Positions 3,745 to 64,000 of a stretch of DNA of 64,000 nucleotides are shown here, piece after piece (the first letter of the stretch is position 1; every line of letters starts with the position of its first letter). This stretch comes from Bradyrhizobium diazoefficiens (GTDB lineage Bacteria > Pseudomonadota > Alphaproteobacteria > Rhizobiales > Xanthobacteraceae): contig NZ_CP067100.1 in assembly GCF_016616235.1 (NCBI RefSeq), positions 2,601,001 to 2,665,000 on the forward strand. The letters run 5' to 3'. Made by a program: the position numbers and the translations under genes. The notes beneath the pieces are model-generated. The model did no database searches and was not told the DNA's origin. It saw nothing but the letters and a program-made list of their open reading frames with translations.

Positions 3745-4039
3745 CTCGGATGATTCCGCGGGAGGAGCGCCGAAGCAAGCCGCTAGCTTTAGAACCGCCT
3801 TGTGGAGAAAAGGCCAGCTCTTGGTCAAGGGTCGCGATTGGCCTTGTTGATCGACTACGCGCAACGCTTTCAAAATTAGGAACCGGACGAACTCGCCGGC
3901 AGGAGCCCAATACATTGATGCGGCTTGCGTGCTCCGTCCAAACAAAATTTTCGATATACCGAAATTTCCACTTGCTCCGTCGGGCAAAACAGTGGTTCAT
4001 AGGGTGCTGGCTCTACCCACATTCGAAGGAACCAGCGTC

Positions 4040-4264
4040 ATGGCGGATGAAGTCGAGGTCTCTTCCGAGCTGTCGAAGATTGCGAAACTCAATGGAGACT
4101 TTCGAAGAAACTACGGCCCTCTACTCGGTGCATTCCTCTACCTGCGTTCGATCAGTGCCGCGCGGGGCCGTTCTTGGCTTTGGGCTGGGCTACTTTCGGT
4201 AGCTTGCTCATCGGGGCTGGCATGGCTCGGGAAGCACGGTTTTTCTTGGTTAGCCTCCGGGTGA
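4040..4264 (+). CDS. hypothetical protein, probably truncated by the recombinase element
   Basis: An ATG with a good AAGGA ribosome binding site starts a 74-codon frame. The first about 40 residues look coding (acidic helix, then a Leu/Tyr-rich stretch). From about 4150 on, the frame runs antisense through the 3' end of the serine recombinase gene. The change coincides with the recombinase stop at 4152. I infer that insertion of the recombinase-bearing element cut off the natural C-terminus. The family is unknown. Confidence 0.35.
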   Translation: MADEVEVSSELSKIAKLNGDFRRNYGPLLGAFLYLRSISAARGRSWLWAGLLSVACSSGLAWLGKHGFSWLASG

Positions 4265-5807
4265 TTGCGCGCACGAGAGCGTCGGGTGTTTTGAATGAGA
4301 CAATTGAGCGACGTTCGCGGGCCGCCTCCGAGAATCTGATGGTTCGCTTCACTCTGCCATCTGTCGGCAACAACACATAGTCCAGTACAGCCTCATTATG
4401 CTCAGATAGCCTGATGGCAGCAATCCACCCAGCAGGCACGTGCGCGTCGCATTGAATGGTCCAATGCGGCGAATGAGTTTCCTCCTTTCCCGGAGTCCAG
4501 CGAGCCGCCCTAACCGAAACACAAGTGGTACCATTCACACGCAACGAATCTGTCCAGCCTCCCGTACTCGTACGACAGCCCGCCTTTCGCACGGCCGCGC
4601 CAATCCCAGCCGCGAGTTCTACTTTTTGCCCCGACCAGAGAGGCCGCAATTCCAGAAATTCATAGTTCCGCTTGGGCGTGTAGCCGAGCAAGCGATAGAG
4701 ATTCCGCATGCTGCCGAAATGGGTCTGACAAGTCGCCACACAGGGTAGGCCCGGCGTACGGTCGATAATGCTGATGCTTAACCGCCCCTCCTTGTGCAGG
4801 GTTCGGCGTAACCGCACAAGCATCTCATCCTCGGTCAGATCGACGCGCCGCTCTTGGATGAACTTAGAAACTCTTGTGAAGACAGCGCGCTCGATTATCG
4901 GCTCAAGGCAGTTTTCAGCCCTGATCCACTGTTCAGGAGGATTGTACGAGCGGATTTGACGCAGCTTCCATGAGCGGCGGTTGAAAACGAGATTGCCGAT
5001 GTAACTCTCGTCTCTGAGGATCGCGCCGACCATCACGCGTGTCCACGGCTTCCCCGTGCGAGTTGGCACCTTCCGCTTGTTCAGCTCCCAAGCTACTACC
5101 GTCTCACACTTCACTTCCAAGAACCGACTAAATATCCATCTGACAGCAGCCACCTCCTTCGGGGGACCGGGGCGCACTCGGATGTGATCAGTTGCAAGAT
5201 ACTTGCGCTCTCCTTTCTTCAGCGCGCCCTTCGATTGCTCTTTCTCGTCAACAAGCTCCCGAACCAGACCATAGCCAACCTTGCCGCAAGGTTTGTAGCC
5301 GAGCCGAGCGAACCGACATTGACCGGCATAGACCTTGGCCGAAAGCTCCCGGCTGTACTCGGCCGCCATGACTCGTTTGATGTTCTTGACGATGCTGGCG
5401 AGCATGCTCCCGTCGTTGTCGAATTGCTCAGCACAGTAGGCCACTCTGATGCCGGCTCGTTTGCAGAGAAACTCGTAGTGCGCACTTTCGTCCACATCCT
5501 GAAAGCGGCCCCAGCGGCTCACGTCATAAACCAGGACATGAGCAAAATCGGCCTCTCCCGCTTGTACGTCTTCTAGAAGTTGAATGAGACCGGCTCGATT
5601 CTTGATCAGGAGACCACTCTCGCCCTCGTCTCTGTAGGTTCGAACAAGCGTCAGATTGTGCGCGTGCGCATAAGCGGCGATCACCGCAGCTTGGTTCTGG
5701 ATCGAATACTGCTGCCGTTCGGTAGACATACGAACGTACTGGGCGGCTCTACACACTTTTTGAGCCGCTGGAAGGCTGGACTTTCGAACGACGAGTTCGT
5801 TGCCCAT
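4152..5807 (-). CDS. large serine recombinase
   Basis: A 551-residue site-specific DNA recombinase. Residues about 20-165 form the resolvase-type catalytic domain with the YVRMSTERQ motif, in which Ser28 is the expected nucleophile. The conserved VYDVSRWGR (about 93-101) and YSREL (about 151-155) segments follow. A 'Recombinase' DNA-binding domain begins near residue 170 (GYKPCGKVGYG). The C-terminal third is less conserved and has no obvious four-Cys zinc ribbon. Such enzymes integrate and excise phages and islands through short att sites. Here it lies at the border of a truncated gene (4040-4264), which fits an insertion event. Confidence 0.9.
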   Translation of the reverse strand: MGNELVVRKSSLPAAQKVCRAAQYVRMSTERQQYSIQNQAAVIAAYAHAHNLTLVRTYRDEGESGLLIKNRAGLIQLLEDVQAGEADFAHVLVYDVSRWGRFQDVDESAHYEFLCKRAGIRVAYCAEQFDNDGSMLASIVKNIKRVMAAEYSRELSAKVYAGQCRFARLGYKPCGKVGYGLVRELVDEKEQSKGALKKGERKYLATDHIRVRPGPPKEVAAVRWIFSRFLEVKCETVVAWELNKRKVPTRTGKPWTRVMVGAILRDESYIGNLVFNRRSWKLRQIRSYNPPEQWIRAENCLEPIIERAVFTRVSKFIQERRVDLTEDEMLVRLRRTLHKEGRLSISIIDRTPGLPCVATCQTHFGSMRNLYRLLGYTPKRNYEFLELRPLWSGQKVELAAGIGAAVRKAGCRTSTGGWTDSLRVNGTTCVSVRAARWTPGKEETHSPHWTIQCDAHVPAGWIAAIRLSEHNEAVLDYVLLPTDGRVKRTIRFSEAARERRSIVSFKTPDALVRAITRRLTKKNRASRAMPAPMSKLPKVAQPKAKNGPARH

Positions 5808-5991
5808 GGATGCTCTCGAAGCCTGCGCCCGCCACTATCAGACGCCTGTGTGAGTCTCTCAGCAAGCGCGTTGACGGGTTCTCGTCATGAATTGTTTCAA
5901 AATGTGGTGACATCGATCTCGTCCACTCGAACGGCGCCATACAATACGTCCCGGACGCAATCGTAACCATCAAGCCGCGCTGGTTTGGCAT
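5749..5991 (-). CDS. possible small protein upstream of recombinase
   Basis: An 80-codon frame overlaps the first 59 bases of the recombinase gene on the same strand. Its middle part (TIHDENPSTRLLRDSHRR) has an unforced protein-like composition, and the overlap would permit translational coupling. A role as a recombination directionality factor is conceivable but not shown by any motif. This could equally be a chance frame. Confidence 0.22.
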   Translation of the reverse strand: MPNQRGLMVTIASGTYCMAPFEWTRSMSPHFETIHDENPSTRLLRDSHRRLIVAGAGFESIHGQRTRRSKVQPSSGSKSV

Positions 5992-6536
5992 CGCGTGCCG
6001 ATCAGCGATGATGCCTCCAAGCCAGAGATCCAAACATCTTTCTGAGTGACAATGGACCTGGAGGGCTAAGGACCTCGACGGAAAAGCTAGTGAAATACCA
6101 GCGTAATTGGTTAGCTGAGCGAGCGTTCGTCCAGGCCCACGAGGGCTATTCCATTGTCGAGCAAGCGCCCGATCCGCAGGAGCAAGGGACGCAGCAATTC
6201 AGATTTTGCCGTGCTAGCGCGTTCCGATGAGAAATAGCGTGCACTCAGTTATGCGATAGGTTTTCCGCGATCGCCAAACAGGGTGCGATCAACGTAGCTC
6301 GGGCACCCAATCTCTTTCTGTGGCTCGCGATCGTGGCGGGCGTTCGGCTCGGGGTTCTGACCTTGGAAGGAGAGGCTGGCGCCGCCCTTGGGTCGTATTC
6401 GATGGACTGCTTCTCATCTGGCCGCTGGCGAGATCGTTCGGGGTGAGAAACATTGACGACGCTGTCGGCACCAGCGTCGGAACTGAGGTGCCTCGTTCGT
6501 CTTGTATCGGAGAACAATTCCCGGAGTTCCGCGTTC
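5992..6536. other. no gene recognised
   Basis: The translations in this stretch are low in conserved character on both strands. It may hold the second attachment site of the serine-recombinase element and the Ku promoter, but I can point to no specific motif. A GGAG about 10 bases before the out-of-frame ATG at 6537 is the only signal seen. Confidence 0.35.
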
Positions 6537-7462
6537 ATGGCCCCCGAGCCAACTGGAAAGGCTTCCTGCGTCTATCCCTGGTGACCTGTCCGGTAGCACT
6601 TTACCCTGCTACATCGGAGAGCGAAAAGATTTCATTCGACCAGCTCAATCGCCAGACCGGCCACAGGATCAAGTATCTCAAAGTCGATGCGGACACCGGC
6701 GACGAGGTGCAAAACGAGGACATCGTCAAGGGCTATCAGCTCGAGAAGGACCAGTTCATCGAGGTCACCAAGGAGGAGCTCGAGGAGATCGCGCTGGAGT
6801 CCACGCGCACTATCGAGATCGACGAGTTCGTGGATCGCACCGACATCGACCCACGCTACCTCATCCGCCCCTACTACCTGCGTCCGGACGGCAAGGTCGG
6901 TCACGATGCCTTCGCGGTGATCCGCGAGACCATCCGCGAGATGGACAAGATCGCGATCGGGAGGGTCGTGCTGACCAACCGCGAGCACATCATCGCGCTC
7001 GAGCCGATGGACAAGGGCTTGGTCGGGACGCTGCTGCGGTATCCGTACGAGGTGCGTAGCGAGGCCGAGTATTTCGACGAAATCCAGGACGTGAAGGTCA
7101 CCAAGGACATGCTGGAGCTCGCCAAGCACATCGTGAACCAGAAGGCCGGCCGGTTCGATCCGGAGAAGTTCGAGGACCATTACGAAGCCGCGCTGGTGGA
7201 ACTCATCAACCAGAAGCGCGCTGGCAAGGTCATCCATCCCAAGGAGCGGCCGAAAGGCGAGAACGTCGTCGACCTGTTGGAGGCGCTGCGCCAGAGCGTC
7301 GGCCGGGAAGCCGCGCCGGCAAAGGCCGCCAAGCCGGCCAAGAAGCCGCGCAAGCCGGCAGCCGGCCAAAAGGAGATGCTGATGCCGATCGCCGGCAAGA
7401 AGCCGGTGAAGGAAGCGGCGGCGAAGAAGCCGGCCGCGGGGGCGCGGCGGAAGTCGGCCTAG
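6537..7462 (+). CDS. ku: Ku DNA end-binding protein, usual start out of frame
   Basis: Bacterial Ku binds DNA double-strand ends as a homodimer and recruits LigD for end joining. The Ku core runs from PRANWKGFLRLSLVTCPV to about residue 260, followed by a Lys/Ala/Pro-rich tail typical of rhizobial Ku. Rhizobial homologues usually begin Met-Ala-Pro-Arg-Ala-Asn-Trp. Here the matching ATG (6537, with GGAG upstream) is followed by one C too few, so it is in a different frame from the rest. The frame is open upstream to an ATG at 6320, so a longer form could be made. No ligD is in the window. A homopolymer sequencing error is also possible. Confidence 0.85.
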
Positions 7463-7570
7463 CGGACCTGACAGAACGGCGACGCCTGCTAGGAACGCTC
7501 GACACAACCGCACGTTCGGGCTCCAGGGAGTCGCAGTCAGCGATTCCGAAGCTCAAAAGGAGGATTCGAG

Positions 7571-7867
7571 ATGAGGTGCATCGCGAGCGCTCTCGTGTTC
7601 GCTCTGGCGATATCGGCTCCGGCCGCGTTTGCGCAGACGAGCAAGCCGGATGTCTCGTCCGCGCCGAGCGCGCAGAACTCAGGCGCCGGCATAACCGGCC
7701 AGCCTGGAAACAAGAACGGTCCGGCGGCAAAGCCGGGAGAGACCGTTGGCTCAAGCTCGACACTCAACCAGCAGAATCCGACGGTGCAGCAGCAGGACAC
7801 GTCCAACATCAAGGGGCTGCCTGGGAACAAGAGCGGCCCGCCCGCCAAGAAGCCGGACCAGCAGTGA
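7571..7867 (+). CDS. secreted Gly/Pro/Asn-rich protein with internal repeats
   Basis: A 98-residue protein with a clear Sec signal peptide (basic start, hydrophobic core, Ala-Phe-Ala-Gln cleavage site). The mature part is disordered in composition and contains two near copies of a G-x-PGNK-x-GP-x-AK unit (about residues 42-54 and 82-95). Such small exported proteins are common and uncharacterised in Bradyrhizobium. An AAGGAGG ribosome binding site precedes the ATG. It lies downstream of ku on the same strand but about 110 bases away, so probably has its own promoter. Confidence 0.7.
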   Translation: MRCIASALVFALAISAPAAFAQTSKPDVSSAPSAQNSGAGITGQPGNKNGPAAKPGETVGSSSTLNQQNPTVQQQDTSNIKGLPGNKSGPPAKKPDQQ

Positions 7868-7903
7868 CGTCGAAGCGCGGCGGTTGGCGTCGGAGCATTC
7901 CCC

Positions 7904-8299
7904 CTAGTGCGGTGACGTCCGGTTCCCGCCGCCGAGCTCTTTAACCATCCGTACGATCTCGTCCGGATGGAAGGGCTTCCTCAACGTGCGGCTGCCCGGC
8001 ACCGGGCGTGGTGTAGTGGGGGAGAAGCCGGTGGCGTAGATGACCGGCAGGTCCGGGTCGTGTTCGCGGCAACGCTCCGCGATCTGCCATCCGTCGACCT
8101 CCCCGGGCAGTCGGATGTCCGTGCCGAGAACGTCCGCCGCGTGCCGCTTGCACCAGGCCAGCGCCTCCTCGCCCGTGCTCGCATGGATGACATGATAGCC
8201 GGCCTCGCGCAGGGCTTCGACGACGAACTCGCGGATGAGAGGATCGTCCTCGACGAGAAGCACGCTCACTGGTCGCTCAGTACGGATGGCATTTGTCAC
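7904..8299 (-). CDS. stand-alone response regulator receiver protein
   Basis: A 131-residue protein made of one CheY-like receiver domain with no output domain. The acidic pocket is in VLLVEDDPLI (near residues 18-19), the phosphoacceptor is Asp61 in GTDIRLPG, the switch Thr is in IYATG (about 90), and the conserved Lys108 is in LRKPF. Single-domain receivers usually act in phosphorelays or on flagellar or histidine-kinase partners. No kinase is adjacent, so the partner cannot be named. All key residues are intact. Confidence 0.9.
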   Translation of the reverse strand: MTNAIRTERPVSVLLVEDDPLIREFVVEALREAGYHVIHASTGEEALAWCKRHAADVLGTDIRLPGEVDGWQIAERCREHDPDLPVIYATGFSPTTPRPVPGSRTLRKPFHPDEIVRMVKELGGGNRTSPH

Positions 8300-24736: not shown

Positions 24737-25035
24737 GCTCCACGTTTTGCGTGCTGCGCAGAGCTTGGACCGAAGTCTCGCCGGGAGTCTGCCTGATCCC
24801 GCTCGGGCAGTCTACGTGAGTTCGCTTGGCCCCATCAAGGGGCCATTCGCCTTTCCGGATGCCATTCGATCGCTGAAAAACTCCCTGACGTAGGGCCCCA
24901 TATTTTCTTGGAATCCTTCGGCCCACGCAGGTTGACAGCCCCGCCATCCGGGCTTTTATTCAGGCCACGGGGAAATGCGATCTCCCCGCGAGGCGTCATG
25001 CCCAAGAATCGCGTCCTGATCACCAAGGGCGCAGC

Positions 25036-25349
25036 ATGTCAGTATCGTACACCTCCATTTCACCCGACAAACTGTCTCGATTGATAAGCACGGCGGCTGC
25101 GCCGGCGCTCATTGACGTATGCAGCGGATTTTTCGGCCGACCCGCGCCGGATTCCCGGCGCCGTGCGGCGCTCGCATCTCGACGTCCGGGATTGGGTGTC
25201 TCGCCTGACGGGCCAGTCCGCCGTCGTGGTTTGGCACAAGGGCAAGGAGCTCAGCAAGGGAGCGCAGGTTTCCTGCTCTACGACGCGTTCTACCGATGCG
25301 CGATGCGACCAAGGAGACGCACCACTGGCCGAACAACAAGATCAAGTGA
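25036..25349 (+). pseudogene. chrB-like chromate resistance gene with internal deletion
   Basis: The start (MSVSYTSISPDKLSRLIS, then APALIDV) and, in the next frame, DFSADPRRIPGAVRRSHLDV plus a VVVWHKG cysteine-loop region match the rhodanese-like N-terminal domain of ChrB-type proteins. The frame then jumps straight to LLYDAFYR, and with a further shift to ATKETHHWPNNKIK and TGA at 25347-25349, the C-terminus of the ChrB domain. About 600 bases of the middle are missing. The rhodanese catalytic Cys position reads Trp. It is a remnant upstream of chrA. Confidence 0.6.
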
Positions 25350-32373: not shown

Positions 32374-32835
32374 TCAGGCTGCCTTCTTTTGCTCGATCTG
32401 CGCCGAAGGGGAGGCGCCGCTTCCGATCTGGATCCGGCGCGGCTTCATCGCTTCCGGCACCTCGCGGACGAGATCGATGATCAGCAGCCCGTCGCGGAAG
32501 GAGGCCTCCTTCACCTGGACGTAGTCGGCCAGGTTGAACACGCGCCGGAACGGACGCGCGGCGATGCCCTGATACAGGTACTCGCCGGCTGCCTTCTCGG
32601 GCTTCCTGCCCTCGATGGTGAGCGCATTCTGCTCGGCCGTCACCGTGATGTCGTCGGCGCCGAAGCCGGCGACCGCGAGCGAGATCCGGTAGTGGTCCTC
32701 GCCGGAGCGTTCGATGTTATAGGGGGGATAGTTGTCCTCGGTCGCCTGGCGGAGCGCGCCGTCGACGATGCTGGCCAGGTGATCGAAACCGATGGTGGAG
32801 CGCCACAGCGGCGCGAAGTCAAAGGTGGTCCTCAT
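32374..32835 (-). CDS. Hsp20 small heat-shock protein (IbpA-like, class A)
   Basis: A 153-residue alpha-crystallin chaperone of the rhizobial class A: N-terminus FDFAPLWRSTIGFDHL, then YPPYNIERSGEDHYRISLAV, LTIEGRKPE and GLLIIDLVREVPEAMKPR. The start ATG 32835 has GGAGG, and that site lies inside a ROSE-type thermometer. It is the first gene of a heat-shock unit that probably continues to 31791. Two small genes diverge from it at 33189. Confidence 0.93.
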   Translation of the reverse strand: MRTTFDFAPLWRSTIGFDHLASIVDGALRQATEDNYPPYNIERSGEDHYRISLAVAGFGADDITVTAEQNALTIEGRKPEKAAGEYLYQGIAARPFRRVFNLADYVQVKEASFRDGLLIIDLVREVPEAMKPRRIQIGSGASPSAQIEQKKAA

Positions 32836-32928
32836 AACCAAGTCCTCCAAAGAGCAAGATGGATACGAAGGAACGCAAGACAGGATTTCAGACGGGGTCC
32901 GAGACCCAGCCCGGCGTTCGCGCCGGGC
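32836..32928 (-). promoter_or_regulatory. ROSE-type RNA thermometer in the hsp20 leader
   Basis: On the minus strand the leader ends TTGCTCTTTGGAGGA just before the start. This is the conserved 3' hairpin of ROSE elements, in which UUGCU pairs with the Shine-Dalgarno GGAGGA. Upstream lie two further hairpins: GGGTC/GACCC (32895-32907) and a perfect 8-base stem with a 4-base loop (32909-32928). ROSE elements hold hsp20 translation off at normal temperature and melt on heat. Confidence 0.85.
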
Positions 32929-32970
32929 CCGATCTGGCGCCCGGCACACCGCTCCCGCGGCGAAAAATGA

Positions 32971-53504: not shown

Positions 53505-54497
53505 TCAGATCACGGCGAACACGCGCGCCAGACGGCCGAAGAACCAGAACATCGACACCGTCCCGATGAGATAGGCGGGGAGGGACTCGCCCCAGCGCGG
53601 CACGACGGCGTCAAGCCGCCGATGCGCCCAGATCAATGCGAGCACCAGCAGCACGAAGGCGAGCTGCCCGATCTCGACGCCGATGTTGAAGAACAGCAGC
53701 GCCGCGGGCAGGAGGCGGCGTTCGAGCCCAAGTCCCGCCAAGGCGCTCGCAAAGCCGATGCCGTGAACCAGGCCGAAGGTGAAGGCCACAACCCAGGGAT
53801 AGCGGGCGGTAAGCCCGATCTCGCCGCGCTGCTGCTTGACGATTTCCACGCCGACGAACGCGATGCTCAAGGCGATGCAGGCGTTGAGCGGGCGTTCCGG
53901 CACGCCGATGAGGCCGAATGCCGCCGCAGCCAGCGAAGCGCTGTGTCCGATCGTGAAGGCCGTGATCGTCTTCACCAGACGCCAGCCACCGCCGACGATC
54001 CAGATCAAGCCCAGCACGAACAGCAGGTGATCGGCGCCCAGCAGAATGTGATCGATACCGTAGTTCACATAAGTCTTGGCGAGCTCGATCCAGGTCTCGA
54101 GCGTCGGCGCGCCGGTGCCGAGGACGGAGACGACGGGATTGGCCGTCGAGATCGTGTAGCTGCGCGGCTCGCCCTCGATCGGGATGACCTTGATCAGGAC
54201 GACCGACATGTTGGAGCCGAGATTGGTGATGGTGATCGGGCCGATCAGTCCCTTTTGGCCGCAGTTCATCTCGGGCAGGCGCAGGAAGCAGTGCGGCGGC
54301 ACCCGCAGATCGACCCGCGAGGCGCCGATCGACGGCTCGATGCTCCAGCGGCCGACAAAGGCGCCGGGCCGAACCTCGCGGAATTCGAGCACGCCCATTG
54401 CCGCTTCATGCGCATGGAGCCCCGAAGGCCGGATCAGTACGGCCACCGTCACTGTCAAGGCCAGCAGCGCCAGCCGCAAATATCGGGCGGCCGTCAC
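53505..54497 (-). CDS. HupE/UreJ_2-type membrane protein with periplasmic N-terminal domain
   Basis: A 330-residue protein of the HupE_UreJ_2 group: signal peptide (about 1-29), a beta-rich periplasmic domain with two Cys (CFLRLPEMNC), then six membrane helices with YGIDHILLGADHLLFVLGL and FTIGHSASLA, LVHGIGFASALAGLG. The two Asp-His pairs are predicted metal ligands. It is coupled to the isomerase upstream (ATGA). Family members are considered metal transport or assembly factors. Confidence 0.82.
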   Translation of the reverse strand: MTAARYLRLALLALTVTVAVLIRPSGLHAHEAAMGVLEFREVRPGAFVGRWSIEPSIGASRVDLRVPPHCFLRLPEMNCGQKGLIGPITITNLGSNMSVVLIKVIPIEGEPRSYTISTANPVVSVLGTGAPTLETWIELAKTYVNYGIDHILLGADHLLFVLGLIWIVGGGWRLVKTITAFTIGHSASLAAAAFGLIGVPERPLNACIALSIAFVGVEIVKQQRGEIGLTARYPWVVAFTFGLVHGIGFASALAGLGLERRLLPAALLFFNIGVEIGQLAFVLLVLALIWAHRRLDAVVPRWGESLPAYLIGTVSMFWFFGRLARVFAVI

Positions 54498-55402
54498 GGC
54501 TCGTTCCGCACTTGATAGGATGCCTTGAGCCGCTTGACCGCTTCCCAGGCGCGCTTGCGGGTTTCCTCCGTATGCCAGTTCCTGGCGGCCTCGTCCCGAA
54601 CGCTGTCGAGACTCGCGAGTTTTCCTGCTTGCCGGGAATCAAGCCGGGCAACGTGCCAGCCATCCTTGGACTGCAACAGCTTCCATTCGCCTTGCGGCAT
54701 CGCCAGCAGCCCGTCACGGAATTTGTCGCCAAAGGATGCCGCAAGACTTTCGACCGGTCGGCCGAGAATGGCGCGGGTGACCTTTTGTAACTCCTCGGAT
54801 TCGCGCTGCTGGGTGATGTCGTCGAGCTGGCGCTGCGCCGTTTCCTGATCCGCCGGCGGGGTGATATAGAATGAAACGCGCTCCGGCTCGTCGAAGCGGG
54901 CGTGATTTTCCGCGAACCAGGCTTGCAGCTGCTCGTCGGTCGGGCGCGGGACGCGGATCTGGTCGAAGATCAGCAATTGCATCTTGAAGGCGATCCGGTC
55001 GCGGATCGTCTCGTCGCCGCGGTCGACGCCGAGCGCCTTGCCTTCGCGGTAGAGAATCTCGCTCGCGACCCAGCTGTCGATCATCTTCTGGAGTTGCGCA
55101 TCGGAAGGGGCACGTTCCTTGTCCTCGTCGAAATTGTCGATGAAGGACTGTCGCATCGCCTTGGTGACGGTGATGACCTTTTCATCCTTGGCCGGTGGAT
55201 GCAGCACGGCGTCGATGCCGAAGATGATCGCTCCGAGCAAGGTGAAGTGCAGCAAAGGTTCGCGCGAGAGCCGCACCAGCGCAGAGATAAAGGAGTGCGA
55301 GGGCGCCGCTGCCGCACGGGCGAGATCGGCGCTCGGGTTGGAGCCTTCGGCGTGCGATCTCGGAAAAGGCTGCACTTCAACTGGTGTCGCTGGCATTGAC
55401 AT
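54494..55402 (-). CDS. membrane-anchored peptidyl-prolyl cis-trans isomerase (PpiC/SurA-like)
   Basis: A protein of 302 residues from ATG 55402 (alternatives 55471 and 55396). A cytoplasmic N-terminus and one membrane helix (LLHFTLLGAIIFGIDAVL) precede a SurA-like helical part (IDSWVASEILYREGKALGVD) and a degenerate parvulin domain (FSFYITPP, SFGDKFRDGLLAMPQGEW, VRLDSRQ). No full set of parvulin His residues is seen, so it is more likely a chaperone than an active isomerase. As first gene of the HupE operon it may fold its exported partners. Confidence 0.75.
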   Translation of the reverse strand: MSMPATPVEVQPFPRSHAEGSNPSADLARAAAAPSHSFISALVRLSREPLLHFTLLGAIIFGIDAVLHPPAKDEKVITVTKAMRQSFIDNFDEDKERAPSDAQLQKMIDSWVASEILYREGKALGVDRGDETIRDRIAFKMQLLIFDQIRVPRPTDEQLQAWFAENHARFDEPERVSFYITPPADQETAQRQLDDITQQRESEELQKVTRAILGRPVESLAASFGDKFRDGLLAMPQGEWKLLQSKDGWHVARLDSRQAGKLASLDSVRDEAARNWHTEETRKRAWEAVKRLKASYQVRNEP

Positions 55403-55404
55403 AC

Positions 55405-55417
55405 GTTTGTCACAAAC
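55405..55417. promoter_or_regulatory. 13-bp palindrome upstream of the isomerase gene
   Basis: GTTTGT-C-ACAAAC at 55405-55417 is a perfect interrupted palindrome in the region between the divergent isomerase and DUF3604 genes. It resembles an operator for a dimeric regulator. It is not a NikR half-site pattern. The regulator is unknown. Confidence 0.35.
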
Positions 55418-55703
55418 TCTCTGGGCACGCGCGTCGCCGCGTCTTATGCGGCAGTGCTTTTCATCTGTCATCTTCTATCGCTCACGCGGCGAAGAAAAAT
55501 GCAATGGGTAAATGCAAGAGACAAGATGCCGCATGTACAGCACGCACTTGTCGCGGCCGAACACAAATCCTTCACGAAGCTGTATCGTAACTCTGGCCAG
55601 TATCGCCGCGTGCAGGGAGCCGCGCACGCGGTTGGGCCAAACGGTTCTCAATTCCCCGCACCTCTGACGAATTTTTCTCGATATGTGACACGAGGGGCGA
55701 TAG

Positions 55704-57707
55704 ATGTTTCCATCCGGCAAGACGATCCTGTTGACTGCGGCATCGGCAACCTTGGCGCTGACGCAGAGCGCTGCGGCCGACGATTGGGGGCGCGGCGAGC
55801 GCCGCGGCAATCCCTACGTCGCGGGTGACATGCACAATCACAATACCTGCACTGACGGTTCGGTTGCCGCCGGCTATGCGATCGATCGCGCGGTCGGCCG
55901 CGGCACCGCGTCGGCCGGTGGAAACAATTTCGATCTCGACTGGTTCACGCTCGGCAACCATGGCGGCTCCGGCAACCGCGACTGCCGCTTCAGCGACACC
56001 AGCGCCAATCTTCCCGGGCAGAGCACGACCACCTGGAGCCAGACGCTCGGCCAGACCATCGACGGCATCACCATCAGCAGCCTGAAAGGCACCCCGAACG
56101 GCAGCGGCACCGGCGCCGCGATGTGGCGCTGGCAGTCGATCCGCGAGGTCGAGTATCCGATCATCGTCAATCGCACCGCCACCTACGACAAGGTGCTGAT
56201 CGAAGGTCTCGAGTGGATCGCGCCGGGCCATGAGCACGTTGATGTCGCCGTCATCACCGGGCAGCACCCGATGCACAAGCGGAAGGGCCCCGGCAACGCC
56301 GACAAAATGGCGGAGTTCGAATACCGCTTCGACCGCGCCGACACCGACGCGATCGGTCCCACCGTCGACGCCAGCGGCAACCAGCTCTGGCCCGGCAAGG
56401 ACAACGTCAACAACACCGGCACCGCGGGTCACCAGAAGGCGCTCACGGGTATCAAGTGGCTGCAGCAGAACTATCCGCTGCAATCCTACGTCATTCCGAC
56501 CCACACCGAGCGCCAGGGACCGTTCAGCGCGACCGCCAGCAAGGGCTACAACATCGAGCACTTCCGCGACTTCAACAACGCGGGCCCGACGGTGGCGTTC
56601 GGCATCGAATCGCCCGGTCACTTCGCCGAAGGCGGCGCCAGCGGCGGCTCCGGCTCGTACACTGCGAACGCGGTCGGCGGCGGCACCTACGGCATGAGCG
56701 GTATCTACACCGCGAAGGTCGGCGGCCTCTGGGACGGTCTGCTCGGCGAAGGCCGCAACTTCTTCATCTTCGTGAGCTCGGACTGGCACAGCCGCGGCGC
56801 GGGCGGTGCGCGTGATTCCTTCACGACGGCCGACTTCATTCCCGGCGAATACACCAAGCTGTATGTCCCGAATGCCGGACGGTTCTCATCGCAAGACGTC
56901 ATCGACGGCATGCGTTCGGGCAATTCGTACTCGGTCAACGCGGACCTCATCGGACCGGATCTGGTGTTCCGCGCCAAGGCGCGCGGCGACGACTGGAAGA
57001 CCATGGGCGAGACGCTGGTCGTAAGGCCGGGCGACAAGGTGACGGTCGAGATGGAGATGACCGTCCCGGCTGAGAACAACGCCCCCTACAGCTTCGACAA
57101 TCCGCTGCTGCTGCCGGTCGGAATCAAGCAGCCGCTGAACAAGCCGTCGCTCGACCACGTCGACCTCATCACCGGCAAGATCACCGGCGTCATCGCGCCC
57201 GATGCGTCCGGCTATGCCGTGGCGAATGCTGCCGGTACGGCCGGTGCGGCGATCGTCTACAACCCGACGGCGACGATCGCGCAGCAGATCTCGGCGAAGC
57301 AGATGCATCGCGAGCATAAGGACCACGGTGCGGTCCGCTTGCGGTTCACGACGACGTTCACCGCCGGCACCCAGCCCTTCTACATCCGCGCGCGCGGCAC
57401 CAACATTCCGAACGGCACGCCCAACGTCACCGACACCGCCGGAAACCCGCTGCTCGATGCCAACAACGCGCAGGTCAGCTGCACCGATCCGGCGTGCCCG
57501 GCGCATCTCGACACCGTGAACGGCGTCAAGAAGGTGACCCACGACGTTCAGGCCTATTCCAACGTCTGGTTCTACGCCAATCCGATCTTCGTGCGGCCGG
57601 AAAATTCGCCGAAGCTGCTGGTCGAGACCAACGCCGAACTGGCTCGCCGGCTCGGGCAGCGCGCCGACAACGATCACGATCACGACGATCATCACGACCA
57701 CGACTGA
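55704..57707 (+). CDS. secreted DUF3604 protein with His/Asp-rich tail
   Basis: A 667-residue exported protein (GAGGGG before the ATG; signal peptide ending about residue 25). It carries the PHP/DUF3604 metal-site patterns GDMHNHNTCTDGS (about 41-53), THTERQGPFSA and SSDWHSRGAGGARDSF, so it is probably a metal-dependent phosphoesterase-like enzyme or metal binder. It has only one Cys pair (CTDPAC) late on. The last 13 residues are almost only His and Asp (ending DHDDHHDHD), a likely metal-scavenging tail. Divergent from the HupE operon. Confidence 0.82.
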   Translation: MFPSGKTILLTAASATLALTQSAAADDWGRGERRGNPYVAGDMHNHNTCTDGSVAAGYAIDRAVGRGTASAGGNNFDLDWFTLGNHGGSGNRDCRFSDTSANLPGQSTTTWSQTLGQTIDGITISSLKGTPNGSGTGAAMWRWQSIREVEYPIIVNRTATYDKVLIEGLEWIAPGHEHVDVAVITGQHPMHKRKGPGNADKMAEFEYRFDRADTDAIGPTVDASGNQLWPGKDNVNNTGTAGHQKALTGIKWLQQNYPLQSYVIPTHTERQGPFSATASKGYNIEHFRDFNNAGPTVAFGIESPGHFAEGGASGGSGSYTANAVGGGTYGMSGIYTAKVGGLWDGLLGEGRNFFIFVSSDWHSRGAGGARDSFTTADFIPGEYTKLYVPNAGRFSSQDVIDGMRSGNSYSVNADLIGPDLVFRAKARGDDWKTMGETLVVRPGDKVTVEMEMTVPAENNAPYSFDNPLLLPVGIKQPLNKPSLDHVDLITGKITGVIAPDASGYAVANAAGTAGAAIVYNPTATIAQQISAKQMHREHKDHGAVRLRFTTTFTAGTQPFYIRARGTNIPNGTPNVTDTAGNPLLDANNAQVSCTDPACPAHLDTVNGVKKVTHDVQAYSNVWFYANPIFVRPENSPKLLVETNAELARRLGQRADNDHDHDDHHDHD

Positions 57708-58942: not shown

Positions 58943-61570
58943 TCACTCGTTTCTCAGGCCGAACTCACGAAGCAGCAAATCCCTTGCCTCACGGCGCGAC
59001 GGGGCCGCCTCATTGATTTTGCGCAGCAGGCGGGCAGCCGCCGCGCGGTCCGAGCCGAGCAGGAATCTCGCCATTCCCATCAGCGGCGCATAGGCCGGAT
59101 CGAACTCGCCGCTCAGGCGAAGCGCGTCGATCAGGCCGGGCGACGCCGCGTCGATCAACGCGGCACCGCGCGGATCGCCTGGTAGGGACGCGCCGGCTTC
59201 GAGAAAGCGGTTGCGCGCCGCCCAGTAGGCATTGAGGCGCGCGCCCAGCGCGTCTTGCTCGGCCGCGCGCGAGAGGAGTTCATTCGGATCCGGCCGGATC
59301 TCTTTCGTGACGGCAAGCAGCAGCGACCAAGGCGCTGCGGTGAGCGCACGGACATTTCGCCGCGCATCGAAGGTCACGAACGGATAATCGTCCGTATTAC
59401 GCGGCCCTTGGCCTGCGAATGCGGAAAGGGCGCGCGGGCCGGCGAGATACTGCCCGAGCAGATCGATCGGTGCCTCGAACCCGAACGGGCGAACGACTGA
59501 TACGATCGCGGGATCGCGAAGCCGTGCAGCGAGCGCATCGATGTCGAGATGGCCGCCGTCCCGCGTTCCGATCAGCGCAAGCATCGGTGTGCGGACGCTG
59601 TAATGATTGAGCCAGGCCGCGCCGTCGGGATAGACGTCGAGAAAGCCGCGGACGATGGCGCGCAGCGAGGGCATATCGAGTTGGTACAGCGGCAGCCATT
59701 GGCAGAAGATGCCGCCTCTCGCCAGGCGGCGTTTTACGGCCGCGAAATGCTCCACGGTGTAGAGCGCGCCGCTGCCGTCGAGCGCCGGATGGAACAGGTC
59801 GGCGATGATCACGTCATGCTGGCCGGTATCCGCAGCGACATAGCGGCGGGCATCGGCCACGGTCACAAGCGGCACGGATGCCGGGGCCGGATTGACGAAC
59901 CAGGGCAGGAGATCGACCACTTCGCGGGAGAGTTCGACGCCGCGCACGCTGACGCCGGGCATCTGCGCCCCGCCGACCATGGTGGCGCCAGTGCCGATGC
60001 CCAGGAACAAGGCGCGGTGCGGCGCCTCGTGAAGCAGCAGCGGCAGCATTGCCTGCCGGTAGTCGGAGCGCGTCGAGCTCGTTCCCCCCATGCGGAAGTG
60101 GCCGTTGATCTCGAGGTAGCGCGTGCCCGTGGCGTCATCGACGACGCTGGCCGTCGCCATCGGACCTTCACGCACCGCAAGCAGCGCGCCCCCCGGCGGC
60201 ACCCGCGTCAATGATGGCGCGGGATTGAGCCACAGGACGAGCGCGGTTAGCGCCGGCGCTGCGGACCACAGTAGCGCCGATCGTCCAGGCGGCAGCAGCA
60301 GCAGATAGCCAAGCGCAACGGCAAGCAGCGCCGTCCAGGCGCCAAGGGCCGGAATCAGGAATTGCGCCGCCAGCAGCGGCGCGATGCAAGCGCCAAGACT
60401 GTTGATGCCGACCGCCGCTCCCACCGAGCCGCGCTGGTCGCTCACCCGTTGCGCCAGCAGGCCGAACAGCGCGCCCATGGCGGTCGCGGGCGCCAGGAAC
60501 AGCGCGATCGCCACGGCCAGCTCGCCGAATACGTCCGCCGACGATATGGCCTCGATCAGACGGCCGGCATAGGGCGCGAGCGCCGCGGTTGCGATGCAGG
60601 CGAGCGCTGTTATGGCGAGCAGGCCGCGCAGATTGCGATCATTCGGGTGGCGCCCGGTCCGCTGCCAGAGCAGGCTCCCCGCCGCGGTGCCGAGCAGATA
60701 GGCGGCCAGCAGTCCAGCGAACGTGTAGACCGTGTCTTCCATCACCTGCGCGGCGAGCCGGACCACGAGGACCTCGAAGGCGATTCCGAGCAGTCCCGTC
60801 GCGAATAGAGTGATAGTGAGCCGCATGTCGCGAATGCGTGCCGGCCGCCGTTCGTCGGCATCAGCCCTGTGCGCCGTCGATCCGAGCGCGAGCGCGCCAA
60901 GGGAGCAGAACGCATTGACCGCGGCGAGGCAAAGCAGCGTTCCCGAAAATCCCAGCGCCGGAATCAGCAGGAACGTCGAGACCAGCGTGCCGGCCAGAGC
61001 CCCGGCCGTATTCGCGCCGTAGACGCCTGCCGCGATGCGGGCCTCGCCACGCGCGGCCCGCATCATCCGTTCCAGCGCGGCCAGCGTTCCGCCCATGGCC
61101 ATCGTGGCCGGAAGCAGCACGAGGGTCGGCAGCGCCAGGCTGCCGACCCAGAGCAGAGCAGCAGATGGTTCGGTGCCGAGCAGGGGAGCCAGGGCGCGGC
61201 CGGCCGCCGGCAGCAGCCAGACGCTGATCAGGCCCCATACGGCAATGACCGCCTCGAGCATTGCATAGGCGCGCCATGGCGATGTCGCGCGGCGGATCGG
61301 CCGATCGAGCGCGAACGCGCCCAAAGCCAGGCCGCCGAAGAACCCGGCGATGACGCCGAGCACCGCCATCATCTCGGTGCCCAGCGCAAGGCTCAGCTGG
61401 CGCGTCCATACGATCTCGTAGCCGAGGCCCGCAAAGCCCGACGCAGTCACGATCGGCACGAGGGCCCAGGCGCGGCTTGCACGCGCGCGCGCCGGCGCGG
61501 CCTCGTCCTGGATCGCGCCCGCGAGCCGATTTGCCGCAGCGATCGTCATGCTGTCCGGCTCAGATTGCAT
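58943..61570 (-). CDS. membrane protein fused to a spermidine synthase-like domain
   Basis: An 875-residue protein (ATG 61570, AGGAG 8 bases upstream). Residues about 30-470 are two sets of membrane helices resembling an MFS-like transporter (SGFAGLGYEIVWTRQLSLALG; LGIAFEVLVVRLAAQVMED). Residues about 500-740 form a polyamine aminopropyltransferase-like fold with YLEINGHFRMGG, LFLGIGTGATMVGGAQM and VIIADLFHPALDG. The C-terminal 120 residues are helical repeats. Such fusions are widespread but their reaction is unproven. It lies about 120 bases downstream of the TonB receptor on the same strand. Confidence 0.82.
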   Translation of the reverse strand: MQSEPDSMTIAAANRLAGAIQDEAAPARARASRAWALVPIVTASGFAGLGYEIVWTRQLSLALGTEMMAVLGVIAGFFGGLALGAFALDRPIRRATSPWRAYAMLEAVIAVWGLISVWLLPAAGRALAPLLGTEPSAALLWVGSLALPTLVLLPATMAMGGTLAALERMMRAARGEARIAAGVYGANTAGALAGTLVSTFLLIPALGFSGTLLCLAAVNAFCSLGALALGSTAHRADADERRPARIRDMRLTITLFATGLLGIAFEVLVVRLAAQVMEDTVYTFAGLLAAYLLGTAAGSLLWQRTGRHPNDRNLRGLLAITALACIATAALAPYAGRLIEAISSADVFGELAVAIALFLAPATAMGALFGLLAQRVSDQRGSVGAAVGINSLGACIAPLLAAQFLIPALGAWTALLAVALGYLLLLPPGRSALLWSAAPALTALVLWLNPAPSLTRVPPGGALLAVREGPMATASVVDDATGTRYLEINGHFRMGGTSSTRSDYRQAMLPLLLHEAPHRALFLGIGTGATMVGGAQMPGVSVRGVELSREVVDLLPWFVNPAPASVPLVTVADARRYVAADTGQHDVIIADLFHPALDGSGALYTVEHFAAVKRRLARGGIFCQWLPLYQLDMPSLRAIVRGFLDVYPDGAAWLNHYSVRTPMLALIGTRDGGHLDIDALAARLRDPAIVSVVRPFGFEAPIDLLGQYLAGPRALSAFAGQGPRNTDDYPFVTFDARRNVRALTAAPWSLLLAVTKEIRPDPNELLSRAAEQDALGARLNAYWAARNRFLEAGASLPGDPRGAALIDAASPGLIDALRLSGEFDPAYAPLMGMARFLLGSDRAAAARLLRKINEAAPSRREARDLLLREFGLRNE

Positions 61571-61690
61571 TCCCCTCACTCCTGCCGCGAGCGCACCCAG
61601 CCGTCCGCGTCCCCGCAGACAGAAGCATCCGCTTCATGTCAGATTTTCTTAGGATTTGTGACGCTCAGTCGGTGCCCATGGCCGCTGTGA

Positions 61691-63934
61691 TCAGAATCTC
61701 GCCGCCACCGTCAGCCGCACCGCGAGGGGCTCGGCCGGATGGACGTGACGATCTGCGACGCCGGCGATGGGCTCTCCCGGCAGGCGCGACAGATAATAAT
61801 ATTCGATCTGGTTGGTCTGGGCATTGAAGAGGTTGAGCACGTCGAGCTGCACCCACAGGCCATTGTCGAACCTGTAGCCGGCGCGCGCATTGAAGATCAG
61901 CGACGCCTTCGAGCGGACGCTGTCGTCCTCGATCAGAGGACGCGGACCGAAATAGCGCGCCTTCAGGCTGCCGAACCAGCCGGTGTCGCCGCCCAGCGTG
62001 ATCGCGCTGCTGGCCACCCACGCCGGTGCGCCGGGAATGTGGGCGCCGGCAGGGTCGAAATCGGTGAAACGCGCGTGGGTCTGGGCGACGTCGAGATCGA
62101 CCGTCATCCACGGCAGCGGCTTGTACTGGTTCGTCCACTCGACGCCGACGCGGCGGCTGGGCCGGCTCGGCTCGGTGGTGCCGGCGTCCCCGACGAACAG
62201 CAGCTCCGAGTCGAAATCGAGCACGAACACTGCCAGCGAGCTGGTGAGACCCTCGATCACCTTGGTGCGGATGCCGAGCTCGGCGCCGCGCGAGCGCACC
62301 AGCAGCGGCACGCGCTCGAGCGGGGTTACCTTGTCGTTGGGATCGACGGTGATGGTCGCGCCGCGGATGTCGTTGCTGTGCAGGCCGTAGCCGGCATTGC
62401 CGTAGAGCTCGGTCTTGGACCAGGGGCCGAGCACGATGCCGGCCTTCGGGCTCATCATCGACGCCTGCGCGTTGCCTGAATTCTCCGGCGTATCGCTAAA
62501 GACGTGGCCGGCGAAAAAATCCTCGCGGATGCCGATCGTGGTGTGCAGCCAGTCCTTCCAGTGCGTGGTCGTGTCGGTCCAGAGGCCGACATTGCCCTCC
62601 TGCACGCGGTCCTCGCGCACGGTCGAGAGCCATGCGCGCTGCTCGGTCTTGAACAGCCCGACGTGGATATCGTCATAGCGGCTCTGCACCCCGACGCGGG
62701 TCTGCGATTCGAGAGAGGCGAAGCGCCAGTCGAACGTGTGCCGCGCATCGACGCCGCCGAGCGTGCGACCGTCGAGCTGGCTGAACTGGTCGCCATTGAC
62801 GGGATTGTCGAGGAAATAGGTGAAATTGTTGAACAGCCGCAGGTCGGAGCGCACGACATAGGCGCTGACATTGGTCTGTCCGTGCTCGCTCGACTGCGCC
62901 CAGTTGCTCGACAGGCTGAATCGGCTGGAGGTGCCGCCATCGGTCGGATCGAGCGTGCCGAAACGGTTGATGAGGCCCTGGTCGATCGCGCGTTGCGGGA
63001 CCTGGTCGGTCGAATTCCAGCCGTTGGAATAGGCCATCGCCGTCAGCGTCAGGCCATCGGTCGCGGTGCCCTGGCTGTAGCGCAGCACGCCGTTCAGCTT
63101 GCGGACATCGTCGGGCACGTCCCAGGGACCGTCATACTTGCTCGCTTCGAACGCCGTCAGCAGCGTGCCGGCACCCACCGCGGTCGATCCCGCTGCCAAT
63201 GCGCGGCGATAGCCGAAGCTGCCGAAGGTCATCTCGGCGACGTTGTGCGGCAGCTTGTTGACATAGTCGATCGCCACGGCGCCGGCGGATGCGAAGTCGC
63301 CCTGGTCGGCGAAATACGGGCCCTTGCGCACATTGACCGACTGGATCAGCTCGGGGATGAGAAAATTGATGTCAGCGTAGCCTTGCCCATGCCCGTGGGT
63401 CGGCATGTTGACGGGCATGCCGTCCACGCTGATCGCGAGATCGGTGCCGTGATCGAGATTGAATCCGCGCAGAAAATACTGGTTGGCTTTGCCCTCGCCG
63501 GAATGCTGCGTGACGATCAGGCCCGGCACCACCTCCAGCGCCTCGCCAGGCCGGGAGAACGGGACTGCGTTGACCTCCGTGCCGCTGATACGCGTTGCGC
63601 TAGCGGCGCTGGGTTGCAGCGCAGACGCGCCGGCGGGCTCCGCGCCGGCCGCACCGCCGCTCTCGGTCGGACTGTCTATGCGGGCGGCAGCATGACTGCG
63701 CAGACCACGGTCCTTCGGCGGCTTTCTGCGGGCCTGCCGTTTGGCAGGCTGATTGTCCGGTGCTGCAACGCTGACCGGCGGAAGCTCGGCGGACGCAGTG
63801 GAGCCGACGTCGTGGGCGGCGGTCGGGAGCGTGCACAGGGCGGACGATGCGGCAGCCGACAACACCCGCGACAAGACCCTACGCACCACGATGTTCCGCA
63901 CGACAACCACAGCAGTCCAATAACAAAGCTGCAC
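61691..63934 (-). CDS. TonB-dependent outer-membrane receptor, probably NikR-controlled
   Basis: A 747-residue receptor. After the signal-like N-terminus and a Pro/Ala/Arg-rich linker the plug domain runs about 105-230 (FSRPGEALEVVPGLIVTQHS, NQYFLRGFNLDHGTDLAISV, TGHGQGYADINFLIPELIQS), then the 22-strand barrel, ending in the aromatic residue Phe (VRLTVAARF). His-rich MPTHGHGQGY in the plug is a possible metal contact. The apparent GTG start at 63934 is only 12 bases from an exact NikR operator, so the true start may be an internal codon. It is inferred to import nickel or a nickel complex. Confidence 0.88.
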   Translation of the reverse strand: MQLCYWTAVVVVRNIVVRRVLSRVLSAAASSALCTLPTAAHDVGSTASAELPPVSVAAPDNQPAKRQARRKPPKDRGLRSHAAARIDSPTESGGAAGAEPAGASALQPSAASATRISGTEVNAVPFSRPGEALEVVPGLIVTQHSGEGKANQYFLRGFNLDHGTDLAISVDGMPVNMPTHGHGQGYADINFLIPELIQSVNVRKGPYFADQGDFASAGAVAIDYVNKLPHNVAEMTFGSFGYRRALAAGSTAVGAGTLLTAFEASKYDGPWDVPDDVRKLNGVLRYSQGTATDGLTLTAMAYSNGWNSTDQVPQRAIDQGLINRFGTLDPTDGGTSSRFSLSSNWAQSSEHGQTNVSAYVVRSDLRLFNNFTYFLDNPVNGDQFSQLDGRTLGGVDARHTFDWRFASLESQTRVGVQSRYDDIHVGLFKTEQRAWLSTVREDRVQEGNVGLWTDTTTHWKDWLHTTIGIREDFFAGHVFSDTPENSGNAQASMMSPKAGIVLGPWSKTELYGNAGYGLHSNDIRGATITVDPNDKVTPLERVPLLVRSRGAELGIRTKVIEGLTSSLAVFVLDFDSELLFVGDAGTTEPSRPSRRVGVEWTNQYKPLPWMTVDLDVAQTHARFTDFDPAGAHIPGAPAWVASSAITLGGDTGWFGSLKARYFGPRPLIEDDSVRSKASLIFNARAGYRFDNGLWVQLDVLNLFNAQTNQIEYYYLSRLPGEPIAGVADRHVHPAEPLAVRLTVAARF

Positions 63935-63946
63935 TATGGCAGATCA

Positions 63947-63974
63947 GTATGACGATTCAGCAACAATATCATAC
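63947..63974. promoter_or_regulatory. NikR operator, exact match
   Basis: The bases 63947-63952 read GTATGA and 63969-63974 read TCATAC, with exactly 16 bases between. This equals the known E. coli NikR operator GTATGA-N16-TCATAC, a 28-bp site bound by the nickel-sensing repressor. The flanking CA/TG extends the dyad to 8 bases each side. It lies immediately upstream of the TonB receptor. Confidence 0.85.
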
Positions 63975-64000
63975 TGGTCTTCGCCGGACATTGCGAATCG

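Follow-up and report, generated by a model that had tools for sequence, protein, structure and literature searches.

A putative NikR operator in front of a TonB-dependent receptor gene of Bradyrhizobium diazoefficiens

Members of Bradyrhizobium live in soil and as symbionts of legumes, and they need nickel for urease and, in some strains, for hydrogenase. A perfect match to the operator of a nickel regulator, found in front of an outer-membrane receptor gene, raises two questions: is the site used, and what does the receptor carry? The window analysed here is a stretch of 64,000 nucleotides of B. diazoefficiens DNA. The reading that we prefer, with a probability of roughly 0.87, is that positions 63947-63974 form a functional NikR operator, at which nickel-loaded NikR would repress a receptor taking up nickel or a nickel chelate; very probably the receptor gene serves nickel uptake and is switched off when there is ample nickel. 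Among relatives of the receptor, operator and nikR tend to be retained or lost jointly. One of the many Bradyrhizobium outer-membrane receptors left unassigned gains a firm substrate prediction.

Operator, regulator and receptor

In the consensus NikR operator, 16 bases separate the arms GTATGA and TCATAC. The elements that the argument needs at this point are the following.

63947..63974, palindromic, no strand assigned: NikR operator GTATGA-N16-TCATAC, arms at 63969-63974 and 63947-63952, exact match
61691..63889, minus strand: TonB-dependent receptor gene, 732 aa, GTG start at 63889; PF07715 plug 58.3 bits, cut-off 23.9
63933..63963, minus strand: candidate promoter A of the receptor, putative and picked by eye, TTGCTG 63963-63958, spacer 19, CATAGT 63938-63933, TGC before it; weak consensus match
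63968..63997, minus strand: candidate promoter B, putative, TTCGCA 63997-63992, spacer 18, TATGAT 63973-63968 within an operator arm

A first-pass annotation had claimed that the operator is present base for base and with the spacing of the E. coli nik operator, and both points hold: the 28 window letters, gtatgacgattcagcaacaatatcatac (GTATGACGATTCAGCAACAATATCATAC), match GTATGA-N16-TCATAC with 0 mismatches, and the spacer is the 16 bases of the E. coli consensus. When up to three mismatches are allowed, the window contains 6 sites against 9.2 expected by chance, the five besides the exact one having 2 or 3 mismatches. The total is no higher than chance, so that the exact match alone stands out.

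At the scale of the genome, a single contig of 7,668,734 bases, the whole-genome scan proposed by the annotation returned one exact site, that at 63947-63974, while the same pattern read backwards has no exact match anywhere in the genome. With up to two mismatches the operator pattern has 42 matches and the backwards control 33; imperfect sites are thus near background, and weak ones can hardly be separated from chance. Two one-mismatch sites were considered as further NikR targets and set aside, one at G000:C1:6733288 (within an ORF) and an intergenic one at 3558286; about two are expected by our own arithmetic from the backwards control, and the ORFs adjacent to 3558286 include no metal-related gene recognised by eye. 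The strong NikR targets of this genome may come down to 63947-63974.

The annotation had made its reading depend on a NikR homologue, and one is encoded in the genome. A full nikR gene lies at G000:C1:257119-257508, and its product scores 97.9 bits with PF08753 (cut-off 22), 206.7 with NF002815 (83) and 191.2 with TIGR02793 (175.45); it also passes the cut-off of the NCBIfam NikR model NF003381. It aligns with the solved E. coli NikR over 133 residues. The aligned part covers MQRxTIT at the N terminus and the H..HVH......C region, two stretches in which we take the DNA- and nickel-binding residues to lie. The gene is not adjacent to the receptor, being ∼2.4 Mb away. The ORF upstream of it resembles, by eye, a metal P-type ATPase, and in the 3.2-kb nikR locus the best candidate for an operator of nikR itself is 3 mismatches from the consensus.

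Where does the receptor gene start? The listed ORF runs from 61691 to 63934 on the minus strand, which gives an alternative reading of 747 aa from a GTG at 63934. GTG 63889 is the likelier start, because a 732-aa database entry (P0001) exists on the contig of this genome and a TGCGGA stretch occupies 63900-63895. With this start, 58 bases separate the end of the operator from the start codon. The operator overlaps both candidate promoters, each a weak match to an E. coli-like consensus; promoter B is the sole promoter-like match of a promoter scan, agreeing at 9/12 positions. The barrel model is unreported for this receptor, yet it is listed for many close homologues.

From these elements we infer binding, repression, the promoter position, the substrate and the role of a HupE-type protein. 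With sufficient cytoplasmic nickel, nickel-loaded NikR (gene at ∼257,100) would sit on both arms and stop RNA polymerase at the receptor promoter, which overlaps the operator. Under nickel shortage NikR would leave its site and the TonB-dependent receptor would be made, bringing nickel or a nickel chelate to the periplasm. A HupE-type permease encoded nearby may then move the nickel over the inner membrane, for urease.

Nickel or cobalt

Does a NikR site fix the metal that the receptor carries? It could be that the control by NikR is real but that the nickel level is just the cue, the receptor carrying a corrinoid or a cobalt chelate, or else several metals. We hold this to be unlikely, although it has several observations in its favour. 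Four Methylobacterium relatives of the receptor (62-63% identity) have a cobalamin riboswitch upstream:

L089, 5479-5677: cobalamin riboswitch upstream of the receptor
L090, 5450-5651: cobalamin riboswitch upstream of the receptor
L091, 5538-5695: cobalamin riboswitch upstream of the receptor
L092, 5447-5648: cobalamin riboswitch upstream of the receptor

The first was the sole positive near a receptor among 10 operator-less loci scanned, and the other three were positive among 8 more. Since these relatives carry the riboswitch instead of a NikR site, the receptor family alone leaves the metal unfixed. Moreover, one entry of the window's clade is labelled BtuB in a source, and a table in PMC3400609 puts such receptors under nickel and cobalt together. 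A shared plug motif does not separate the metals either. In an alignment of 83 rows, histidines 144, 162, 180, 182, 519 and 732 (747-aa numbering) are conserved in 99% or more of the letters. The plug motif NMxTHxHGQGY, with its invariant histidines, occurs in 12 of the 13 alignment rows listed, the thirteenth (AM1) being gapped there; the motif is common to the NikR-linked and the riboswitch-linked receptors and has no power to tell them apart.

Against a cobalt or corrinoid cargo stand the window itself and other relatives. No cobalamin riboswitch reaches gathering score in the window. The cut-offs of the B12 receptor models and of PqqU all lie far above the scores of this receptor (BtuB models 25.9 bits vs 836 and 23 vs 599.7; PqqU 49.8 vs 1200), no NCBIfam receptor model reports it at cut-off, and solved structures (PqqU/YncD, BtuB) match it weakly, best over the plug part. 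Beside the relatives in Bradyrhizobium and Afipia there are NikR sites or nikR, hyp, HoxN-type and hydrogenase genes. On Afipia carboxidovorans pHCG3, nikR and hypDEB adjoin the receptor, with a one-mismatch site between nikR and the receptor. On two plasmids of peanut Bradyrhizobium an exact and a one-mismatch site precede a HoxN-type gene, the receptor follows, and hydrogenase-related genes are close. On the plasmid of Methylorubrum extorquens AM1 an exact NikR site immediately precedes the receptor match, the best operator candidate of the M. extorquens CM4 plasmid locus has at least 4 mismatches, and neither of these two loci has a cobalamin riboswitch at gathering score. Cupriavidus necator pHG1 has a HoxN-type gene ∼4.4 kb off and a best operator candidate with at least 4 mismatches. 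One receptor family thus stands behind NikR here and behind a cobalamin riboswitch there, which makes the question of nickel versus cobalt directly testable.

Related systems have already been described. In E. coli the nikABCDE operator has the arms and 16-base spacer of the window, and its target is an inner-membrane ABC importer, whereas the target in the window is an outer-membrane receptor. In Helicobacter the NikR operator is more degenerate than GTATGA-N16-TCATAC at 63947-63974. NikR represses nikABCDE, according to PMC2667541, and titles in the reference list of PMC11247825 describe FrpB4 and FecA3 of Helicobacter pylori as outer-membrane receptors repressed by NikR with nickel; these are also TonB-dependent, and are likened to the window's receptor by description rather than by sequence.

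Closer to home, Bll6948 of B. diazoefficiens, RPA_4757, pHCG3_081 and Daro_3944 are tabulated as nickel/cobalt receptors in PMC3400609. Two other papers treat Bll6948 and Daro_3944 either as predictions, with reference to Rodionov et al. 2006 (PMC7142613), or as known nickel receptors (PMC11247825). Over 86% of the query, the receptor of the window shares 53% identity with the pHCG3 receptor that adjoins nikR and hypDEB and is taken to be pHCG3_081 because the record has a single matching place. The Bll6948/pHCG3 type and the window's receptor are alike in being TonB-dependent receptors tied to nickel genes; unlike that type, the window's receptor lies in a cluster with HupE and CehA genes, apart from nikR and hydrogenase genes, and its likeness to Bll6948 is one of description only. 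Nickel TonB-dependent receptors had already been predicted in Bradyrhizobium in the form of Bll6948, and it is a well-supported prediction that the window's receptor adds another. Among the open-access literature matches listed, no published test of this receptor can be recognised by title or abstract start.

Neighbouring genes

The genes around the receptor raise the further question of its partners.

58943..61579, minus strand: MFS/spermidine-synthase-like membrane protein, NF037959 67 bits (cut-off 40), 111 bases downstream of the receptor
55704-57707: CehA/McbA metallohydrolase-like protein, 667 aa, weak match of 31.5 bits (cut-off 80), beside the receptor in 11/11 clade loci
54494..55471, minus strand: PPIC-type peptidyl-prolyl isomerase, PF13145 58.1 bits, upstream of the HupE genes
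53505..54497, minus strand: HupE/UreJ_2-type protein, PF13795 159.3 bits
52882..53487, minus strand: HupE/UreJ-type protein, PF04955 192.3 bits
52268..53008, minus strand: second HupE/UreJ-type ORF, PF04955 54.1 bits, its listed start overlapping the preceding ORF

Eleven loci (L015-L025) share the receptor neighbours of the window and form its clade: a GspC-like gene upstream and, downstream, the MFS/spermidine-synthase-like gene, a 2OG-oxygenase, a small ORF and the CehA-like gene. The MFS/spermidine-synthase-like gene is found by the receptor in 11/11 clade loci and in none of the flanks, up to 6 kb, of the other 69 of the 80 loci compared (the best 80 of 471). It is possibly co-transcribed with the receptor; no terminator-like site was detected on the minus strand in the stretch with the two genes. 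Could NikR control both as one unit, with the enzyme encoded at 58943-61579 making or exporting a nickel-binding molecule that the receptor takes back, i.e., a nickelophore system? Such a system would account for the gene order, kept in 11/11 clade loci, and for the lack of a detected terminator between the genes, and we consider it distinctly improbable.

As regards the inner membrane, HupE/UreJ proteins elsewhere are nickel or cobalt permeases, according to PMC2667541 and PMC7689651, which suggests by analogy that the HupE-type protein of the window is the inner-membrane partner of the receptor. Orthologues of the 53505-54497 protein (87-94%) occur in 10/10 clade genomes searched, each apparently just past the locus edge by a deduced contig correspondence; five non-clade genomes gave a best match of 47% or 45%, or no match at all. 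No NikR site was found for the window's HupE genes. At L055, positions 3929-8175, a row of peptidyl-prolyl isomerase, HupE_2 and receptor genes stands without an operator, although its genome encodes nikR as well as another receptor, L036, that does carry the operator; this row links HupE_2 proteins to the receptor family.

On the side of demand, a urease gene is present in the window's genome and a search of the genome for NiFe hydrogenase gave no match, so that urease is a likely nickel consumer. A NikR-controlled nickel permease was also sought in the genome and rejected: the sole NicO match is RcnA-like by eye, and the operator-like site that fits best in its locus, at 3 mismatches, falls within the ORF.

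Elsewhere in the window, the region 24758-25038 contains matches to the Rfam RNAs chrB-a (24964-25038, plus strand) and chrB-b (24758-24802, minus strand), and 32829-32944 on the minus strand matches a ROSE heat-shock RNA thermometer.

Conservation of the operator and its coupling to nikR

The receptor relatives compared are the best 80 of 471 confirmed, and all counts of 80 loci below refer to this set. An upstream operator with at most one mismatch is found in 59/80; the best upstream arm match has 0 mismatches in 54 loci, 1 in 5, 2 in 4 and more in 17, the operator of L063 not being judgeable in the just 11 bases available upstream. Over the 1,048,604 bases of the 80 loci there are 54 exact arm pairs, all with a spacer of 16; at the other spacers from 4 to 30 exact arms occur 0 times, and two controls with rearranged arms gave 0 sites. 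Allowing one mismatch raises the number of sites to 61, including one of L058 that lies elsewhere, 3.3 kb upstream, and two of L087 near the receptor. In the column statistics of the operator region the loci were selected for having the site, and arm conservation there reflects that selection. Neither the spacer nor a TGCTAGCGT-like block was selected for, and both are moderately conserved, the block, at about the distance of promoter A downstream of the operator, in most Bradyrhizobium rows.

How closely does the operator follow its regulator? The fetched flanks of 41 of the 80 loci contain nikR, divergent in 40 and in tandem in L094, and 39 of these 41 have the operator at one mismatch or fewer. 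Whole-genome searches for nikR were positive in 36/49 and 28/28 genomes, with two genomes common to both batches and the first batch picked to include every poor-site locus. In the 76 loci that remain of the 80 after removal of L063, L022, L052 and L054, 55 have operator as well as nikR and 15 have neither, an agreement of 70/76; four Methylobacterium genomes are coded here as lacking nikR, with a 77.7-bit match against the cut-off of 175.45. The operator is alone in one locus (L028) and nikR in five (L055, L075, L076, L078 and L094). L028's missing nikR may be an assembly gap, since nikR is present in the one-contig genome G096, whose operator is identical in letters to that of L028.

On the receptor tree, built by a quick method and with long-branch warnings, there are nine independent pairs in which one member has nikR and the other lacks it; the operator is concordant in a median of 8 and opposite in none (median p 0.008). 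A rerun without 19 loci, mainly from metagenome-assembled genomes, left 57 loci and 5 pairs, of which 4 were concordant (p 0.125).

A scan of 146 Bradyrhizobium genomes that did not depend on the receptor found the exact operator in 106, against 2 for the backwards control, and nikR in 111. Both occur in 101 genomes and neither in 30, with the operator only in 5 and nikR only in 10, an agreement of 131/146; Fisher p-values for the 76 loci and the 146 genomes ignore kinship. The five genomes with an exact operator and no nikR match are G093, G098, G146, G192 and G202. Among 30 operator loci listed, the window's own included, tblastn places a receptor relative in 20 (two at 27% identity) and nikR in 5. 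In 8/19 operator loci listed, the nearest ORF on one side has, by eye, HAxDADH, given as the NiCoT motif in PMC7689651.

Might the operator then be a relic of a time when nikR was adjacent, which no longer controls the receptor in the window's clade? The ancestral layout is indeed gone: nikR is absent from the receptor flanks of all 11 clade loci, and 3 mismatches is the best that the nikR locus of this genome offers. However, both arms are exact in 10 of the 11 clade loci while the spacer varies, and the exception, L021, has a changed right arm in a genome with no nikR match, all of which leaves a relic highly improbable. L029, by eye, has arms 13 apart with one change and likewise belongs to a genome without a nikR match; the sites of L021 and L029 look like decaying operators. 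For the preferred reading, a working operator, it amounts to a natural test of site use that several lineages have lost regulator and operator together and that the receptor, though placed away from nikR, has kept its operator.

A chance coincidence of 12 bases, to which the ∼0.46 exact matches expected in 7.67 Mb (our own arithmetic, equal base frequencies) and the lack of clear enrichment of near matches in the genome would lend some colour, is excluded for practical purposes by an operator kept in place and spacing across relatives and coupled to nikR. The annotation had argued from the rarity of such a match; its conclusion stands through conservation, whereas the exact match by itself was insufficient at that expected number per genome.

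A last variation on the site comes from a distant relative. In L094, at ∼2831-2858 between the tandem nikR and receptor genes, GTAGGA-N16-TCCTAC has both arms altered alike, a possible symmetric variant of the operator.
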